Assembly (NCBI RefSeq): GCF_947487515.1
Contig: NZ_CANKWO010000001.1
Span: 558,001-622,000, forward strand
Direction of reading: 5' to 3'
Source: an uncultured Litoreibacter sp.
GTDB taxonomy: Bacteria > Pseudomonadota > Alphaproteobacteria > Rhodobacterales > Rhodobacteraceae
DNA: 64,000 nucleotides
The position numbers and the translations under genes are program-made. The notes beneath the pieces are model-generated. The model was not told the origin of the DNA, ran no database searches, and worked only from the letters and a program-made list of their open reading frames with translations. Positions 2,395-48,760 of the stretch are shown here, in pieces; within the stretch, counting starts at the first letter, position 1, and each line of letters opens with the position of its first letter.

Positions 2395-3485
2395 GCCTGC
2401 GCGTCGTTCGAGCTGCCTTTGGAGGGATCACCGCAGGTGCCGCAAAAGTTGTAAAACGAGTTCTCGCGCGTGCCGCAGTTGGTACATTTGCTAAACAGGC
2501 AAAACCCGCAATGGACGCAATAGTCGACGTCAGCCATCGGTGGCTTCTCCGACTTTCTTACGGCCTTGGTGACAAACCGGCGGTCGCAGCTGGGGCAGAC
2601 CCCGTCCGAAATCTTTTTCACCGCCGTTTCATATTCGATCAGCTTGCGTTTTTCGGTCTCGGGCTTTTGCTCTTCGGTCTTCTTGTTGCTTTGATAACGC
2701 ATCATCGCCTTGATCGAAAAATGCGCAAACAACAAGGCCATGGCAATGCCGACGATGTATCTGACATAGCCGCCATAAGAGGGCAGATAGGGCACCAATT
2801 CGACGAAGAACGCAAAGAGAGAGAACAAAATGAAGCTTCGATAGATCGGCCAATAATGCGAGCTACGCTTCTTGGCGATCATCCACGCGGATATCAAAAG
2901 CAACGGCAAAGTCAGCGCGAGCCGAAGCATGAAAACCTTCAACACTTCGAATTTGCGGGCTTTTTCATATATAGGCCGCGCGGCATCTATGACCTGGCGC
3001 CTGTCTTGGCGAAGAGCCGCCAAGGTGCGGCGCGGCTCTACGCCTTTTTGCTCTAAGCGTTCGATGTCGCGCTCGGCTTTGCGTTCCTCAAGTTTCAGCG
3101 CCTCGATCTCATGGCTGCGCTTGATGACTTCAGAGTTCTGATCATCCGCTTCCGTGGCAGTTCGCGTCGCAATCCAGCTTCGAAAATTGATCAACTGGGT
3201 GTTGTAGTCCAAAGACCGTGACTTTAGTCGAACACGCGCATCTTCAATGTCGTTCTTATTGACGAGCAACGTGGCCTCGAGGGTGTCGATCCGCGCGTCG
3301 ATGGCCTCTAGTTTGACGTTATCGACAAAGTCGCTCTGCGATATTCGCTTTCCGGCAGTCGGGACGTCGGACATGATCAGCCCGCCCAATTGTATCAGCA
3401 GCCCTGCGATCACAATAGACAACAACCACATGGCTAAGCTGAACCAAAACATCGGACGTCGGACGGCCTTCATTTGCATTTCCAA
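2391..3485 (-). CDS. Membrane protein with coiled coil and C-terminal zinc ribbons (unknown function)
   Basis: 364 residues, not assigned to a family. Order along the chain: a transmembrane helix at about 13-38; a long charged helical region at about 55-175 rich in heptad-like Leu/Glu/Arg (IDTLEATLLVNKNDIEDARV, EIEALKLEERKAERDIERL), likely a periplasmic coiled coil; three further hydrophobic segments at about 180-265; then a cytoplasmic tail with cysteine pairs CPSC, CVHCGFC, CTNC and CGTCG (about 300-355) forming one or two zinc ribbons. The start MEMQMKAVRRP has no strong ribosome-binding site, so a few residues are uncertain. It is convergent with the deacetylase and downstream of the degP terminator, so it is probably monocistronic. 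Confidence 0.75.
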   Translation of the reverse strand: MEMQMKAVRRPMFWFSLAMWLLSIVIAGLLIQLGGLIMSDVPTAGKRISQSDFVDNVKLEAIDARIDTLEATLLVNKNDIEDARVRLKSRSLDYNTQLINFRSWIATRTATEADDQNSEVIKRSHEIEALKLEERKAERDIERLEQKGVEPRRTLAALRQDRRQVIDAARPIYEKARKFEVLKVFMLRLALTLPLLLISAWMIAKKRSSHYWPIYRSFILFSLFAFFVELVPYLPSYGGYVRYIVGIAMALLFAHFSIKAMMRYQSNKKTEEQKPETEKRKLIEYETAVKKISDGVCPSCDRRFVTKAVRKSEKPPMADVDYCVHCGFCLFSKCTNCGTRENSFYNFCGTCGDPSKGSSNDAQA

Positions 3486-3538
3486 TACATTTTTTCAATG
3501 TCGCCACAGCTAGCAAACCTTGCCCCTTTCAGGCAAAC

Positions 3539-3568
3539 AAAAAAGGGCGCTCAAACAAAGCGCCCTTT
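3539..3568 (-). terminator. Rho-independent terminator of the Do-type protease gene
   Basis: A 9-bp perfect stem (AAAGGGCGC with GCGCCCTTT on the plus strand, 3542-3550 and 3560-3568) with a 9-nt loop. Read on the minus strand it is followed by a run of six T. It lies 23 bp past the protease stop codon. Confidence 0.9.
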
Positions 3569-42876: not shown

Positions 42877-43953
42877 CTAGATAGCACCGACCCAACTCGA
42901 ATAACTAGACGGTGGATCAGCAGTCAAGGTGCGCCAATGCTCTCGAAAGAACTGTTCACAGTACATATCCGATAGGATGATTTTCTCACCGTTTTCTTTA
43001 ACTCTAATGTTAAAGTTTTTTGCCAACTCATTCTTCACGGTACGTTGGTAGCTCGCCGACAATCCGCCTACAGTAGCGAGCACCTCGACATTTGGGTTGG
43101 CACGAACCTTGAGGAGTTCCAAATTTTGACGGTGAAAGGCTGAACCTAAAAATACAATCCGTTCTGCTTCCATCAAGTCCTTGTGCATCGCAGATTGCTT
43201 ATCTTGGTCACCCATACCTTGTGTAAATGTTCTAATTTCCGAAGCAGCTACGGCAAGACTGTCAGCCCTCACATTTCCGAAAGGAGCGGCTGCAGTATCA
43301 GAATTTTGCCAAGGTAGCCTTCCTGCAATTCCATACGGCCTGTGAACACGAAGATCTTGCACGTAATCTTGAACCAATTCCTCAGTCAAACCATAGTAAT
43401 TTGCGATCGATTTCGGGAGGTAATGCTCTAAGCAGCGATCATAATTAAATGAAACGAACGATAAGTTTTCGAAGATATTAGAAATATCTTCCCTCTTTCT
43501 ATTCTCGCAAATAATTTTCGTTAGGTGAGAGTACCAAGTCGATCCAAATTTCCTCAAGTCAATTTCATTAGAACGCTCGTGAGTTTCCTTAAAGAAGTGA
43601 CTTTGTTTCTCAGCGGAATGGATGGCTCTAACGATCCCTAACTTAGCTACAAGTTCAGTCTGAGCATCACCCAAGGCATCTACGATATTATCAATGGATA
43701 TTGCTTGTTTGGCCGATGCTATTATTTGATGAGCCGAATGCCTGTGACTATTGAACTTTTCTACCTCCCTTCCCTCGTTTAGCGAAATCTTCAGCGCTTC
43801 AGAAAGAGTGCGGTCACCACTCGTCTGGCCATTCCAGTCATACTTGAGATTGATAATCTTTGAGATATCTTCCAATAGGGCGTCCCCGACTGGAAGCCCC
43901 ACCTCGGCACTCGCCCCTGCCCCCAAGACAAAGAGTGTTTTCGCGCGAAACAC
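42877..43953 (-). CDS. Stand-alone SIR2-like protein, candidate NAD-consuming defence effector
   Basis: 358 residues. SIR2-type NAD pocket: TLFVLGAGASAEVGLPVGDA (residues 6-25), SFNYDRCLEH (168-177), VHRPYG (203-208, with the likely catalytic His204) and FLGSAFH (268-274). These are the motifs of SIR2_2-type domains used by bacterial immune effectors. No second recognisable domain. The DNA is AT-richer and its codon use differs from its neighbours, which suggests acquisition. GTG 43953 lies 3 nt after the thyX stop with GGAG in the end of thyX, so it is probably co-translated from the thyX transcript. No other defence genes adjoin. Confidence 0.82.
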   Translation of the reverse strand: MFRAKTLFVLGAGASAEVGLPVGDALLEDISKIINLKYDWNGQTSGDRTLSEALKISLNEGREVEKFNSHRHSAHQIIASAKQAISIDNIVDALGDAQTELVAKLGIVRAIHSAEKQSHFFKETHERSNEIDLRKFGSTWYSHLTKIICENRKREDISNIFENLSFVSFNYDRCLEHYLPKSIANYYGLTEELVQDYVQDLRVHRPYGIAGRLPWQNSDTAAAPFGNVRADSLAVAASEIRTFTQGMGDQDKQSAMHKDLMEAERIVFLGSAFHRQNLELLKVRANPNVEVLATVGGLSASYQRTVKNELAKNFNIRVKENGEKIILSDMYCEQFFREHWRTLTADPPSSYSSWVGAI

Positions 43954-43956
43954 CCG

Positions 43957-44865
43957 TCAGTCTCCAACAACCCCCATAAACTCCCGCCATTCACCTTTGG
44001 ACATGCCGGAAGTCTCTTGGGTGACGTCCTCGCCTTTCAGCATACGGCGCAGGCAGTCGACGCCTTTGCCGGAGAGTTGTGCGCCGCCCAGACGGTAGTC
44101 CTCGAACGCGGAATAGGCTGCGGGGACCCAATCGGCGACGACCTTACAAATCGCATCGGCATAGACGCGGATTTCGTATTGGGCGTGGCTGTCCGCGCGC
44201 AGGCGCAAGAAGTGGAACAGATTGTGGAGGTCCACCTTCCAGTACCACTGCGTATAGATGTTGGCGGGCAGGTTCATGCGGGCCAGCTCGCGGGCCAGTC
44301 CGTCTTGGCCGTCATCGGAGATCATCGCCTCGTAGTTATCATAGGCGCGGGTGCTGTCGGACTTGAGGATTTCCAGCACGCGTGCGGCCTCCTCGCCCTC
44401 CAGAATTTGACCGCGGCCTTGGTTGTTCACCACGGATTGCGCGTTGATATGCTCGGGCGCGGGAATGTAGAATTCGCGATCAAGGATGGAATAGCGGGCG
44501 GAGTATTCGTTGACGTTGGCCGTCCGGTGGCGGATCCACTGGCGCGCCACGAAGACGGGCAGTTTGACGTGCAGCTTGATCTCGCACATCTCGAACGGCG
44601 TGGAATGCCAGTGGCGCATCAGGTAGCGGATCAGGCCTTCGTCGTTTTGCACCGATTTGGTGCCCTTGCCGTAAGACACCCGCGCGGCCTGACAGATGGC
44701 GCTATCGTCGCCCATATAGTCGATGACGCGGATAAACCCGTGATCAAGGACCTCATGGGCGGTATACAAGTGCTGCTCCATCCCCGGCACTGTGGCGCGC
44801 ATCGTGGTGTTGGTTTGAGACCGCGCCTCAGCGATTTCCTGAGCTTGTTCGGTGGAAATAGGCAT
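43957..44865 (-). CDS. thyX: Flavin-dependent thymidylate synthase
   Basis: 302 residues. It makes dTMP from dUMP with methylenetetrahydrofolate and FAD/NADPH. The ThyX motif [14 protein letters not shown] is at 112-125. ATG 44865 has GGAGA at correct spacing, so the longer frame to 44931 is rejected. No thyA is present in the window. The SIR2-like gene follows after 3 nt; upstream a 252-bp gap (44866-45117) is shared with the divergent lipoprotein gene and contains TTGACT at 45040 without a convincing -10. Confidence 0.97.
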
Positions 44866-45117
44866 ATGCGGTCTCCGGCGTATTAAGATTCGTGGACTGA
44901 AACCACATATTGCGTCGAAGGCGGGGGTCACATCAAGATGATGTTGCGGTTATCCACAAGGTAATGCCTATCCCTTTGAAACACGGGCGATTGTTTAGCA
45001 ACACTCGGCAAATTCACCAGCTTCTGCACGCCTGTGTCGTTGACTTTTAACCTTTCCCGACCGAGTTTCCGAACAAAACGCGCCCAAGTGCGCTTATTCG
45101 GGCAGTGAGATATAGCT

Positions 45118-46032
45118 ATGACATTTGATACAGCCGTGAAGGCATTTGGCATCCTTTCAATATCCGCACTGGTCGCTTGCGGCGGCGGCGGGTCGAACCC
45201 TGTCACGGGTGGCACAGTTGATACTGTTGTCGACCCCACTGATCCGAACACGGTCACCGGACAAAAGATCGCCTTCGACGAGTCTGTGGCATTGGTTGCC
45301 AACACGATGGAATTTGATGACCAAGGCACTGCTGACCCGTCAGATGACACGCTGAACATCAACAACATCCCATTTGACACCGAAACAGGGTTTTACAACA
45401 GAGCCGCTACCTTGCCCAATGGCTGGGGACTTTACGAGAGTGACGAGCGCGGCCAAAGCGGTCGCCTTAGATACTCCGCGATGTTCAACAGGTCTGCATC
45501 GGGTAACGTAGAAGGCGGTGTTGCCGCTTCTCCGGACTGGTTGGGGACCGCGAATAACGCCGGCGCATTGGTTCGCCGCAACAATTCCGCAATTTCACTG
45601 CCAGTGAACGGGATTATCCAATATACTGGCACCTATGGCGGCATCCGTGAATTGGACAATGACGTGGTCGGTGGCGCAGGGATTGAACTGGTCACGGGCG
45701 ACGCAAGTGTTCTGATCGACTTTGACGATTTTGACATAACCGGCGATATCGTGGGCTTCATCACCAACCGACAAGTATACGACGCGGATACGCAAGCTCT
45801 TCTGGGCACCTTGGCAAGTGTTTCATTGGCTGAGGCGTTTATCAACCGCACCGACGCGACCATCGACGAAAGTACAGCCGTTGCCGTTGACGGCACTTTG
45901 AACGGGACTTGGGAAGGCGTGTTTGGAGGGGCAAACGGAGAGGAAATCGCTGCTTATGTTATCCTCAACGGCACGACGCCGGTAACCGCTGCGGAAGTAC
46001 GCGAACTAGGTGTACTTCTGGTTGCTCAATAA
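45118..46032 (+). CDS. Surface lipoprotein, TbpB-like, probable Slam substrate
   Basis: 304 residues. Lipobox LVAC with Cys21 after a short signal peptide, then a Gly/Asn/Thr-rich handle with CGGGGSNPVTGG. The C-terminal part ends TLNGTWEGVFGGANGEEIAA-YVILNG, which matches the GxFxGpnaeE(A/I)xG signature of TbpB/HpuA-type beta-barrel domains of lipoproteins exported by Slam. The next gene, overlapping by 23 bp, is a Slam itself, so the pairing is strong. Ligand unknown; a metal or haem ligand would be an inference from the Neisseria examples. Confidence 0.85.
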   Translation: MTFDTAVKAFGILSISALVACGGGGSNPVTGGTVDTVVDPTDPNTVTGQKIAFDESVALVANTMEFDDQGTADPSDDTLNINNIPFDTETGFYNRAATLPNGWGLYESDERGQSGRLRYSAMFNRSASGNVEGGVAASPDWLGTANNAGALVRRNNSAISLPVNGIIQYTGTYGGIRELDNDVVGGAGIELVTGDASVLIDFDDFDITGDIVGFITNRQVYDADTQALLGTLASVSLAEAFINRTDATIDESTAVAVDGTLNGTWEGVFGGANGEEIAAYVILNGTTPVTAAEVRELGVLLVAQ

Positions 46033-47407
46033 AACCATATTGGAAGTCGCGCGGGGGGCGCTGCTTCTGACACTTCCGTTTCTATTTGCAACTGACGCTT
46101 CGGGGCAAAGCTCGCGAGGTGAAATAACGGTGGTTGAAAGCCGGTCACTTGCGTTCTCACTGGTATCGCAAGGACAACCTGTGCCTGCGCGCGCAATTGC
46201 GCTTGCGCTGCTCAAACGGGATCCGAACGACATCAAGGCATTGCTCGTGTTGTCGCGTGCGGAGCGCTTGATGGGGAACCTGAAGGACGCAAAGCGCGCA
46301 GGAAAGCGAGCCTGGAAAACAGCTGATTCCTCGGGACATAAGTTTACTGCGGCCATGCTTACCGCGCAGGCGGTATCCTCAATGGACAACAAGTTGTCTG
46401 CCCAAATCTGGTTGCGCCGAGCAGCGCAAGTTGCCCCCAATGAGAAGCTTAAAGCCTCCGCTGTTCGTGACTTACGTTTTGTAAGAGGAAGCAGCCCTGT
46501 TTCCCTTAACTTCGACATCTCCGTAGCGCCTTCAAGCAACATCAATAACGGCTCAAAATCAGAGTTCATTGAAATTGCAGGGCTTCCGTTTGCGCTTAGC
46601 GGCGATGCTCAGGCACTGTCGGGCATAGAATACGCCTTTGGCTCTACTTTCTCTTATAAACTACCGACCCAAAACGACTGGAACCTCACTGCGGGTTTAT
46701 CGTTGTCGTCTCGTTTTTATACTTTGTCTTCCAGCGCAAAAGCCCTTGCGCCGGATGTAAGCGGCTCAGATTACGCATTTCAGGAAGTCACAGCCTCCCT
46801 GGTCGCCAGCAAACAGGATCGCGACAGAAAAGGTGCTACTAGCCTGCATGTTAAAGCAGGTCACAATTGGTATGGTGGATCCTCCCTCAGTCAGTTTGTC
46901 GAACTGGGGGCCAGTCGCCAACTCAGAGTCGGAAAAAGGTCATCTTTAGGCTTCAACCTTGGATTGCAGCGGCAATGGCGCCAAGACAGCGACCTTCGGT
47001 CTTCGGACGTTACCAATTTGTCAGTTACATGGGCTCATGCTCTGAACGGCGGTGGTGCTATTTGGGTAACCGGATACGCAAGTGACACGGCATCAGAATC
47101 AGCGGCAATTGCACATGGCAACTATGGCGCGACCATTCGATACACGCCCGCAAAGCCATTGTTTGCAGATACAAATCTGGAGCTTGCAATGGGGTATAGC
47201 GAGAAGGAATTTGACCGAGCCCAGTTTCCGTTTTCACGACGAGAGGACAAAACTGTGGATGCGTCAATAAAAGTGATTTTCAACGATCTGAATTACATGG
47301 GGTTTGCGCCAACGGCCGAATTGAATGCCAAACAGACAAGTTCAACGCTGGATCAATTCAGCCTTGAAGACATAGGCGTCAAACTTGGTCTTCGGTCGAC
47401 TTTCTGA
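46010..47407 (+). CDS. Slam (DUF560) surface lipoprotein assembly modifier
   Basis: 465 residues. Signal peptide (VARGALLLTLPFLFATDASG), then TPR-like helices at about 30-150 (RAIALALLKRDPNDIKALLV, LSRAERLMGNLKDAKRAGKR), then a C-terminal barrel of about 300 residues with alternating strands, ending in Phe as outer-membrane barrels do. The barrel start VAPSSNINNGSKSEF, then LPFALSGDAQALSG, is the DUF560 signature. It moves surface lipoproteins across the outer membrane in cooperation with the Bam/Lol pathways. The start is GTG 46010 or TTG 46022; neither has a clear site. It overlaps its substrate gene. Confidence 0.88.
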   Translation: MYFWLLNKTILEVARGALLLTLPFLFATDASGQSSRGEITVVESRSLAFSLVSQGQPVPARAIALALLKRDPNDIKALLVLSRAERLMGNLKDAKRAGKRAWKTADSSGHKFTAAMLTAQAVSSMDNKLSAQIWLRRAAQVAPNEKLKASAVRDLRFVRGSSPVSLNFDISVAPSSNINNGSKSEFIEIAGLPFALSGDAQALSGIEYAFGSTFSYKLPTQNDWNLTAGLSLSSRFYTLSSSAKALAPDVSGSDYAFQEVTASLVASKQDRDRKGATSLHVKAGHNWYGGSSLSQFVELGASRQLRVGKRSSLGFNLGLQRQWRQDSDLRSSDVTNLSVTWAHALNGGGAIWVTGYASDTASESAAIAHGNYGATIRYTPAKPLFADTNLELAMGYSEKEFDRAQFPFSRREDKTVDASIKVIFNDLNYMGFAPTAELNAKQTSSTLDQFSLEDIGVKLGLRSTF

Positions 47408-47477
47408 CATTAGCCTCCCTACCCCGCAAAACACCCGTCGCCTTGAACGTGTCTTAGGGGACTTCGTCCGGACACGT

Positions 47478-48299
47478 ATGCGCGGTGTATTGGGCGAGCT
47501 GTTCATGTTCGTCCTCAAACAAGGCTGGGCCGCCCTCTTCGGGGTGTTGTTTCTTGTGGCCATCATCGGCACCAAGCTGGTGTGGCAGGACGACTGGGCG
47601 CTGCAACGGTATGACGGGCTTTTCATTTTTGCCGTGACCACTCAAATTGCCATGCTCTACTTCAAGCTCGAAACTTGGGATGAAGCCCGCGTAATCTTGT
47701 TGTTCCACGTCACGGGCACAGCGATGGAGCTGTTCAAAATACGAATGGGATCATGGTCTTACCCAGAACCAGGCCTGTTCGTTCTGGGCGGCGTGCCTAT
47801 GTTTTCAGGCTTCATGTATGCGTCGATTGGCAGCTATATTGCGCGGGTGATCCGCATCTTTCACATGCGTTTCGCACCTTACCCGCCACTTTGGGTGACC
47901 TTCGTCTTTGGCACGGCCATTTACGTGAACTTCTTCGCCCATCACTACACAATCGACATTCGGATGGGGCTCTTTGCCGCCTCGTTGGTTCTTTTTGCGC
48001 GAACCCGCATCTGGTTTTACGTCGGCACAGAGCCGCGCTGGATGCCCATGCCCGTGGCCGCCTTTTTATGCGCCTTCATTGTCTGGATCGCTGAAAATGT
48101 CGGCACGATGACCGGCACTTGGATCTATGCGGGGCAATCTGCTTTGGAGATGGTCAGTTTTGCGAAGATGGGGTCATGGTATTTGCTGCTTTGGGTGGCA
48201 TTTGTGACCGTGACACTCGTGTCGCGTGGAGCATTGTCCCCGAATTCCGAACGCCCGCCCGCAAGGCCCTCGCCATCCGCGCCGGAGACGCTAAACTGA
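47478..48299 (+). CDS. DUF817 family integral membrane protein
   Basis: 273 residues from ATG 47478; about eight hydrophobic segments and the conserved FVLKQGWAALFGVLF, FKLETWDEARVILLFHVTGT-AMELFK, GVPMFSGFMYASIGSYIARV and HHYTIDIR. This is DUF817, of unknown function. The frame continues upstream to TTG 47385 (overlapping the Slam stop by 23 bp) and the extra residues (LERVLGDFVRTRMRGVLGEL) resemble family N-termini, so the longer form may be the real one. Confidence 0.85.
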   Translation: MRGVLGELFMFVLKQGWAALFGVLFLVAIIGTKLVWQDDWALQRYDGLFIFAVTTQIAMLYFKLETWDEARVILLFHVTGTAMELFKIRMGSWSYPEPGLFVLGGVPMFSGFMYASIGSYIARVIRIFHMRFAPYPPLWVTFVFGTAIYVNFFAHHYTIDIRMGLFAASLVLFARTRIWFYVGTEPRWMPMPVAAFLCAFIVWIAENVGTMTGTWIYAGQSALEMVSFAKMGSWYLLLWVAFVTVTLVSRGALSPNSERPPARPSPSAPETLN

Positions 48300-48325: not shown

Positions 48326-48760
48326 ATGAAAATCGAATTCCTGCACACAATGGTGCGCGTCAAAGATTTGGATAAATCCATTGCGTTTTACAAAATGCTT
48401 GGCCTGATCGAGCGGCGTCGCATGGATCATGAAGCAGGTCGCTTCTCATTGATCTTCATGTGCCCCCCTGAGCAAGCCGACGGTCGCGCAGATGTTGAAC
48501 TGACCTACAATTGGGATGGGGACGATGCCCTGCCCGATGACAGCCGCCACTTCGGCCACCTCGCTTACCGCGTCGAGAACATCTACGAGATGTGCCAAAC
48601 ATTGATGGATGCAGGCATCACCATAAACCGCCCCCCACGTGACGGGCATATGGCCTTCATCCGCTCTCCTGACAATGTCTCTATTGAATTGCTACAGATG
48701 GACGAGCCGTTGCCCCCGCAAGAGCCATGGGCCTCGATGGAAAACACCGGCCACTGGTAG
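48326..48760 (+). CDS. gloA: Lactoylglutathione lyase (glyoxalase I)
   Basis: 144 residues. It converts the methylglyoxal-glutathione hemithioacetal to S-lactoylglutathione. The four metal ligands are placed as in E. coli GloA: His7 (FLHTMVRV), Glu58 (ADVELTYNW), His78 (HFGHLAYRV) and Glu121 (SIELLQ). AAGTTAGGAG gives the ribosome-binding site for ATG 48326. With glutathione reductase elsewhere in the window it fits thiol-dependent detoxification. Confidence 0.93.
   Translation: MKIEFLHTMVRVKDLDKSIAFYKMLGLIERRRMDHEAGRFSLIFMCPPEQADGRADVELTYNWDGDDALPDDSRHFGHLAYRVENIYEMCQTLMDAGITINRPPRDGHMAFIRSPDNVSIELLQMDEPLPPQEPWASMENTGHW

Follow-up and report, generated by a model that had tools for sequence, protein, structure and literature searches.

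A predicted Slam (T11SS) translocator and its cargo lipoprotein at a conserved chromosomal site of an uncultured Litoreibacter

We identified two adjacent genes within the window (the whole 64,000-nucleotide stretch of uncultured Litoreibacter sp. DNA that was analysed) which, judged by profile matches and structural models, form a genuine Slam/T11SS pair of the marine kind published in 2025 (PMC12282271). Computation yields two proteins with predicted folds, a near-obligate pairing of the two across relatives and no detectable receptor in the window genome. We consider it probable (roughly 0.72) that the pair is a one-cargo Slam system, the lipoprotein of which would be displayed on the cell surface, act without a TonB receptor and contact a constant partner. 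A preliminary description of this DNA had proposed a Slam-lipoprotein pair, and the proposal as a whole agrees with a SlipAM match above cut-off, a lipobox and the predicted folds of both proteins; its coordinates for the two genes coincide with the open reading frames (ORFs) in Table 1.

Table 1. Features of the Slam-cargo pair and of its neighbours (window positions)
Feature	Position	Strand	Basis
thyX (flavin-dependent thymidylate synthase), neighbour, not part of the pair	43957..44931	-	Pfam Thy1 191 bits; adjoins gloA in genomes without Slam
CGTTGACTTTT element, candidate -35 of the cargo promoter	45038..45048	+	Conserved TTGACTT
Cargo lipoprotein CDS, 304 aa	45118..46032	+	ORF, AF2 model, Foldseek, relatives upstream of Slam
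Predicted lipoprotein signal peptide and lipobox LVA/C (C21)	45118..45180	+	Sequence; script rule in relatives
Predicted N-terminal beta-rich (effector) domain, residues ~46-160	45253..45597	+	AF2 secondary structure; conservation equal to that of the barrel
Predicted C-terminal 8-strand barrel (our count), residues ~161-304	45598..46029	+	AF2, sub-threshold TbpB_B_D, Foldseek
GTWEGVFGGANGEE motif, residues 263-276	45904..45945	+	Sequence; G263 and G271 invariant in alignment A4
Slam/T11SS outer-membrane protein CDS, 465 aa, GTG start uncertain	46010..47407	+	SlipAM above cut-off; AF2
Predicted periplasmic TPR-like helical domain, residues ~41-161	46130..46492	+	AF2; TPR_14 below cut-off
Predicted 14-strand outer-membrane barrel (our count), residues 164-465, Phe end	46499..47404	+	AF2; SlipAM residues 166-450
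DUF817, neighbour, not part of the pair	47385..48299	+	Pfam DUF817 310 bits; at 7/7 Slam-less sites read
gloA-like glyoxalase, neighbour, not part of the pair	48326..48760	+	Pfam Glyoxalase; adjoins thyX in genomes without Slam

The product of the second gene matched the Pfam family SlipAM/DUF560 at 28.8 bits (E 1.1e-6), exceeding the curated cut-off of 22, which upholds the DUF560-type barrel of the preliminary description, and SlipAM was found at E ≤ 1 in 35 of the 36 members of alignment A5, the window's own included. The AF2 model built from this 36-sequence alignment (pLDDT 88.7) places seven helices in the N-terminal domain, followed by a barrel of 14 long strands between residues 164 and 463, two short strands being left uncounted, and the protein ends in the expected phenylalanine. 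TPR repeats had been proposed for the N-terminal domain; the modelled helices carry that reading, since the best Pfam TPR match (TPR_14, 18.9 bits) falls under its cut-off of 23.5. Structure prediction and a genome-wide search for further Slam genes had both been suggested, and the latter returned the window gene as the single SlipAM match of its genome. A Foldseek search with the model was uninformative by itself as an identifier of the Slam barrel: BcsC and PelB, other TPR-plus-barrel exporters, led the list with porins after them, so that the fold alone is no proof of Slam. The same ranking would suit a polysaccharide exporter of the BcsC/PelB kind with the lipoprotein as a periplasm-facing accessory, but SlipAM scores above its curated cut-off, the partner carries a cargo-type barrel and none of the four profiled neighbours (thyX, DUF817, gloA and a decarboxylase) makes polysaccharide, which leaves this alternative very improbable.

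The reported 23-bp overlap of the two genes holds for the longest frames and hinges on the GTG start of the Slam gene, TTG codons at 46022 and 46040 being possible alternatives; the N-terminus of the ORF is hydrophobic as read from this uncertain start. Litoreibacter halocynthiae and L. ascidiaceicola, at 64 % identity the two nearest relatives, have an in-frame ATG 25 bp past the cargo stop. Such close spacing recurs in the group, as 73 of the 77 loci examined offer a possible Slam start no more than 30 bp from the cargo stop.

The first gene encodes a putative lipoprotein with the lipobox LVAC at residues 18-21, as had been noted from the sequence, and a script rule recovered a lipobox in 74 of 78 relatives. 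Standard profiles reach the protein only below threshold: TbpB_B_D aligned to residues 161-280 at 13.9 bits (E 0.079) against a Pfam cut-off of 26, by which the cargo is not a member of the TbpB family, and NCBIfam slam_lipo (NF041636) scored 17.4 bits (E 0.004) against a curated cut-off of 80, so that the cargo is not filed in that equivalog. Among the 75 cargos of alignment A4, the window's own included, FHBP_C matched 31 (best E 7.7e-5) and TbpB_B_D ten (best E 1.1e-5) at E ≤ 1. Searches of PDB sequences with the single proteins gave chance-level rows only (E 2 and 0.41), and in a PDB profile search factor H binding protein appeared at E 0.5-1.2, outranked by an unrelated row at 0.09. The AF2 model of the cargo (pLDDT 86.7, pTM 0.82) combines an N-terminal beta-rich domain with a C-terminal barrel of eight strands by our count. 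All 21 matches of this model to solved structures at E ≤ 0.001 were hemophilin/HphA, TbpB, LbpB, NHBA or an entry named 'Surface Lipoprotein', with modest TM-scores (0.28-0.44 by query length) and rmsd values of 6-16 Å; haem-loaded HphA of Vibrio harveyi came first (8gm3, E 1.5e-6) and TbpB next, Acinetobacter baumannii hemophilin also ranking high. The predicted folds of both proteins thus bear out the suggested structures, the cargo being TbpB/hemophilin-like. The GTWEGVFGGANGEE motif, which had been placed at the end of the protein, is present but not terminal, as 28 residues follow it. All 75 aligned cargos, counted without their first 20 residues, are acidic (pI 4.1-4.7), and the N-terminal domain (2.49 bits per column) is as well conserved as the barrel (2.47).

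The two genes travel together. We compared 80 related loci, the best 80 of 246 relatives from a genome scan with the Slam alignment and hence chosen for their likeness to the window. With the window cargo alone as query, 51 of 79 genes upstream of Slam were found at E < 1e-5. When the cargo profile was iterated on these loci, it recovered a relative as the gene immediately 5′ of Slam at 79 of the 80, a few of which are truncated by contig ends, and it matched none of the other ORFs among the 5957 in these loci; in the 80th (L117) the Slam gene lies at a contig end. Because these loci also trained the later rounds of the profile, the independent figure is the 51 of the first round. A broader survey covered 248 genomes of the family, of which 136 matched the window Slam and 117 the cargo profile. 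Among the matches listed, 111 of 122 cargo matches lay directly 5′ of a Slam match, and 109 of 125 Slam matches (E ≤ 1e-20) had an adjacent cargo. Thirteen of the other 16 were read, giving three with a cargo (L184, L185 and L189), two at contig ends (L179 and L191) and eight without a profile match; of the remaining three, two are pieces of split genes (G133 C16 and G160 C108) and one (G129 C65) was counted as lacking a cargo. A cargo was therefore present upstream of 112 of 121 assessable Slam genes, and nine had no profile-matching cargo there. The cargo is near-universal beside Slam and divergent in its sequence. The profile match, the predicted fold and this pairing together support the earlier reading of a Slam with a TbpB-type lipoprotein.

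Certain loci of the survey depart from this arrangement. Upstream of Slam in L180 and L183, both among the eight without a profile match, lies another lipobox ORF unmatched by the cargo profile; that of L180 (positions 2492-3544, upstream of the Slam of G159) is 350 amino acids long and possibly another type of cargo. In L186 and L187 Slam adjoins thyX with no profile-matching cargo between them, making these candidate cargo losses, and the genome of L186 (G061) has a cargo-like match on a different contig. Slam genes that score higher against SlipAM (55-117 bits) occur in other family members (L002-L022); a rough tree built from the longest ORF of each locus, unchecked individually, puts them outside the branch of the window gene.

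Distances between gene trees fit a mostly vertical descent of a linked pair: the correlation was 0.66 for Slam and cargo (n=75), 0.55 for thyX and Slam (n=60), 0.42 for thyX and gloA (n=58) and 0.27 for thyX and cargo (n=58). Since every one of the ten comparisons lay above all 499 permutations, this control does not set Slam and cargo apart.

The pair occupies a conserved chromosomal site, thyX-(DUF817)-gloA-(DUF1194), and the neighbours mark the site and not a shared function. Of the 80 related loci, a number of which are truncated by contig ends, 62 contain thyX, 76 gloA and 10 DUF817. In the 70 Slam-positive genomes that head the list of Slam matches, DUF1194 lay no more than 3 kb downstream of Slam in at least 43. 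Co-location this strong would suit a functional unit of the pair with thyX, gloA and DUF1194, concerned with one-carbon, aldehyde or metal metabolism, or a DUF1194 protein that is itself the cargo, ideas that are considered in PMC12282271. However, the same neighbourhood exists without Slam. In a control set of 80 of the 100 family genomes with neither a Slam nor a cargo match, thyX was found in 60 and gloA in 74; the two were divergent neighbours less than 3 kb apart in 57/60 (the median gap is 170 bp, and 48 gaps are shorter than 400 bp), and DUF1194 followed gloA within 1.5 kb in 41 of the 74 genomes with gloA. The DUF1194 tests differ between the two sets (3 kb after Slam, 1.5 kb after gloA) and the frequencies are alike. 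The only DUF1194 of the window genome, moreover, is on another contig. The published co-occurrences hence need no functional link, and we regard such a unit as very unlikely.

The preliminary description had also suggested that DUF817, the real start of which is probably downstream of 47385, may belong to the unit. We rejected this membership: DUF817 fills all seven of the ~1-kb thyX-gloA gaps read in Slam-negative genomes, one of them in the window's genus, and stands beside only 10 of the 80 pairs. Two larger gaps in Slam-negative genomes (1585 and 2309 bp) lie outside the sites read and could hide unrecognised genes. Upstream of thyX a SIR2-like gene (42877-43953, minus strand) is a possible defence gene, with a weak PADLOC match to Aga_SIR2 (E 3.1e-6, residues 4-38 only) and no Pfam match at E ≤ 0.01.

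The pair is probably transcribed from a promoter of its own. TTGACTT occurs in 52 of 74 regions upstream of cargo genes, the window's included, a contrast with shuffled sequence that is inflated by kinship among the loci, and 47 of the 52 place it 58-85 bp before the cargo start; it was absent from all seven of the empty, Slam-negative sites read, which together point to a promoter belonging to the pair. A sigma-70 scan of the region gave one site against 2.6 in shuffles and did not list the TTGACTT element. Between thyX and the cargo gene, at 44950-44958, lies TTATCCACA, the DnaA-box consensus. Ten of 74 such regions contain this sequence, among them those of the window and L092-L096, and nine of its 15 exact copies in 1.41 Mb of related loci are between thyX and cargo. 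It also occurs just before thyX in a Slam-negative genome of the window's genus (L172:3313), but the remaining six of the empty sites read lack it.

The best-known Slam-exported lipoproteins pass nutrients to TonB-dependent receptors, and a role in metal capture had been suggested for this cargo too. A lipoprotein that captures haem or metal and delivers it to a TonB-dependent receptor, in the manner of TbpB, HpuA and HphA, would accord with the haem-loaded HphA, TbpB and hemophilin structures at the head of the Foldseek matches and with the Plug domain found in 46 of 80 pair-bearing genomes. The window genome, however, is 99.83 % complete and gave no Plug match at E ≤ 0.001 and no receptor barrel above cut-off, the one match having E 0.5; among 14 control genomes, the Plug and barrel searches were each positive in three (E. 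coli, Caulobacter and Bacteroides). No TonB receptor partner of the kind that serves TbpB or HphA is thus detectable in it. The other 34 of the 80 genomes, the window's included, likewise lack a Plug match (40/73 of the good-quality subset have one). These counts cover pair-bearing genomes only, taken in list order except for eleven, of which eight lacked an adjacent cargo in the survey; the pair was established by adjacency in 78 of the 80 and by reading the loci in G148 and G100. Since 46 genomes do have a Plug, action without a receptor is shown to be possible only for the remaining ones. Haem is bound through two histidines by A. baumannii HphA and through one by Haemophilus haemolyticus hemophilin, according to the part of PMC8560813 used here. 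The window cargo contains no histidine and so lacks such a ligand; counting it, 34 of the 75 cargos in the alignment are free of histidine, and the most histidine-rich column has it in 26 of 75, an argument that still allows ligation by tyrosine or methionine. Because the genome has no detectable TonB-dependent receptor and the cargo no histidine, haem or metal capture through such a receptor is unlikely in the window genome, and as an account of the pair we give it very little weight. Of the earlier interpretation, the Slam with a TbpB-type lipoprotein is kept, while DUF817 membership is dropped and metal capture is unlikely.

Our preferred reading is instead that of a one-cargo Slam system, of the marine Roseobacteraceae/Rhodobacteraceae branch, working at the cell surface. 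The lipobox suggests that Sec would export the lipoprotein, which would then receive its lipid at Cys21 and be carried to the outer membrane. By homology with known Slam systems, the helical domain and the 14-strand barrel of Slam would recognise the C-terminal 8-strand barrel of the cargo and move it outward, and the cargo would stay lipid-anchored on the outer face with its N-terminal domain directed outward. There it would act without a TonB-dependent receptor, which is apparently missing from this genome, and the N-terminal domain may contact a constant partner (a surface, a neighbouring cell or a component of the cell envelope), with no part in nutrient delivery. The equal conservation of this domain and the barrel speaks for such a constant partner. 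A role in surface contact is our best guess, by exclusion and conservation; adhesion is possible.

The window pair is not the first of its kind. Our literature search found marine Slam loci treated only in PMC12282271 (Grossman et al. 2025), and the sections of that survey drawn on here describe Slam experiments confined to animal-associated bacteria, consistent with the preliminary statement that Slam is characterised mainly in pathogens, although a marine locus had already been described. Recognisable cargo was rare in that survey (0.21 cargo per OMP, with a TbpB barrel domain in 8/145 loci), whereas with a purpose-built profile it is near-universal here. Three readings were offered there, namely that the cargo lies elsewhere, that it falls below threshold or that the function has changed; near-universal cargo by our own profile favours the second, and also names the cargo of the marine T11SS. 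One-carbon metabolism, glyoxalase and DUF1194 were raised in the same survey as associations, and comparison with empty sites removes the main reason to tie marine Slam systems to thymidylate, glyoxalase or DUF1194 functions. What is added to the 2025 survey is therefore a near-universal cargo, neighbours that act as site markers and a genome without a detectable TonB-dependent receptor. We lean, by somewhat more than even odds, towards marine Slam pairs being a receptor-free T11SS branch with one dedicated, conserved lipoprotein per channel, the barrel of which is too divergent for standard profiles, and towards the one-carbon, glyoxalase and DUF1194 links being by-products of the conserved site. 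The window genome, which has Slam and cargo and no detectable TonB-dependent receptor, offers a clean place to ask what a Slam cargo does beyond nutrient capture.

With Slam1/TbpB and Slam2/HpuA of Neisseria the window pair presumably shares the DUF560 barrel and a lipid-anchored cargo with a TbpB-type barrel. Set beside the Neisseria system by description, it differs in a cargo below the TbpB_B_D cut-off and in having no detectable TbpA-like receptor. The HphA/HsmA/HphR system of A. baumannii, as far as the part of PMC8560813 used here describes it, resembles the window in a Slam beside its cargo, in a cargo with an N-terminal domain and a C-terminal 8-strand barrel and in a similar predicted fold; in contrast, a TonB-dependent receptor is not detectable in the window genome, the window cargo offers no histidine for haem and none of the four profiled neighbours is a haem gene. 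The closest likeness is with the marine cluster 3 T11SS locus of Roseobacteraceae/Rhodobacteraceae, described with thyX, lactoylglutathione lyase and DUF1194 and with a barrel lipoprotein of 282-375 amino acids in 10 of 11 syntenic examples (PMC12282271, in the sections drawn on here). Unlike that locus, the window has no DUF1194 beside the pair and has DUF817 between Slam and gloA. It shares with it the lineage, the thyX and glyoxalase neighbours, a cargo whose 304 residues fall within the published range and the C-terminal 8-strand barrel, and by synteny and lineage the window pair agrees with the marine cluster 3 T11SS.
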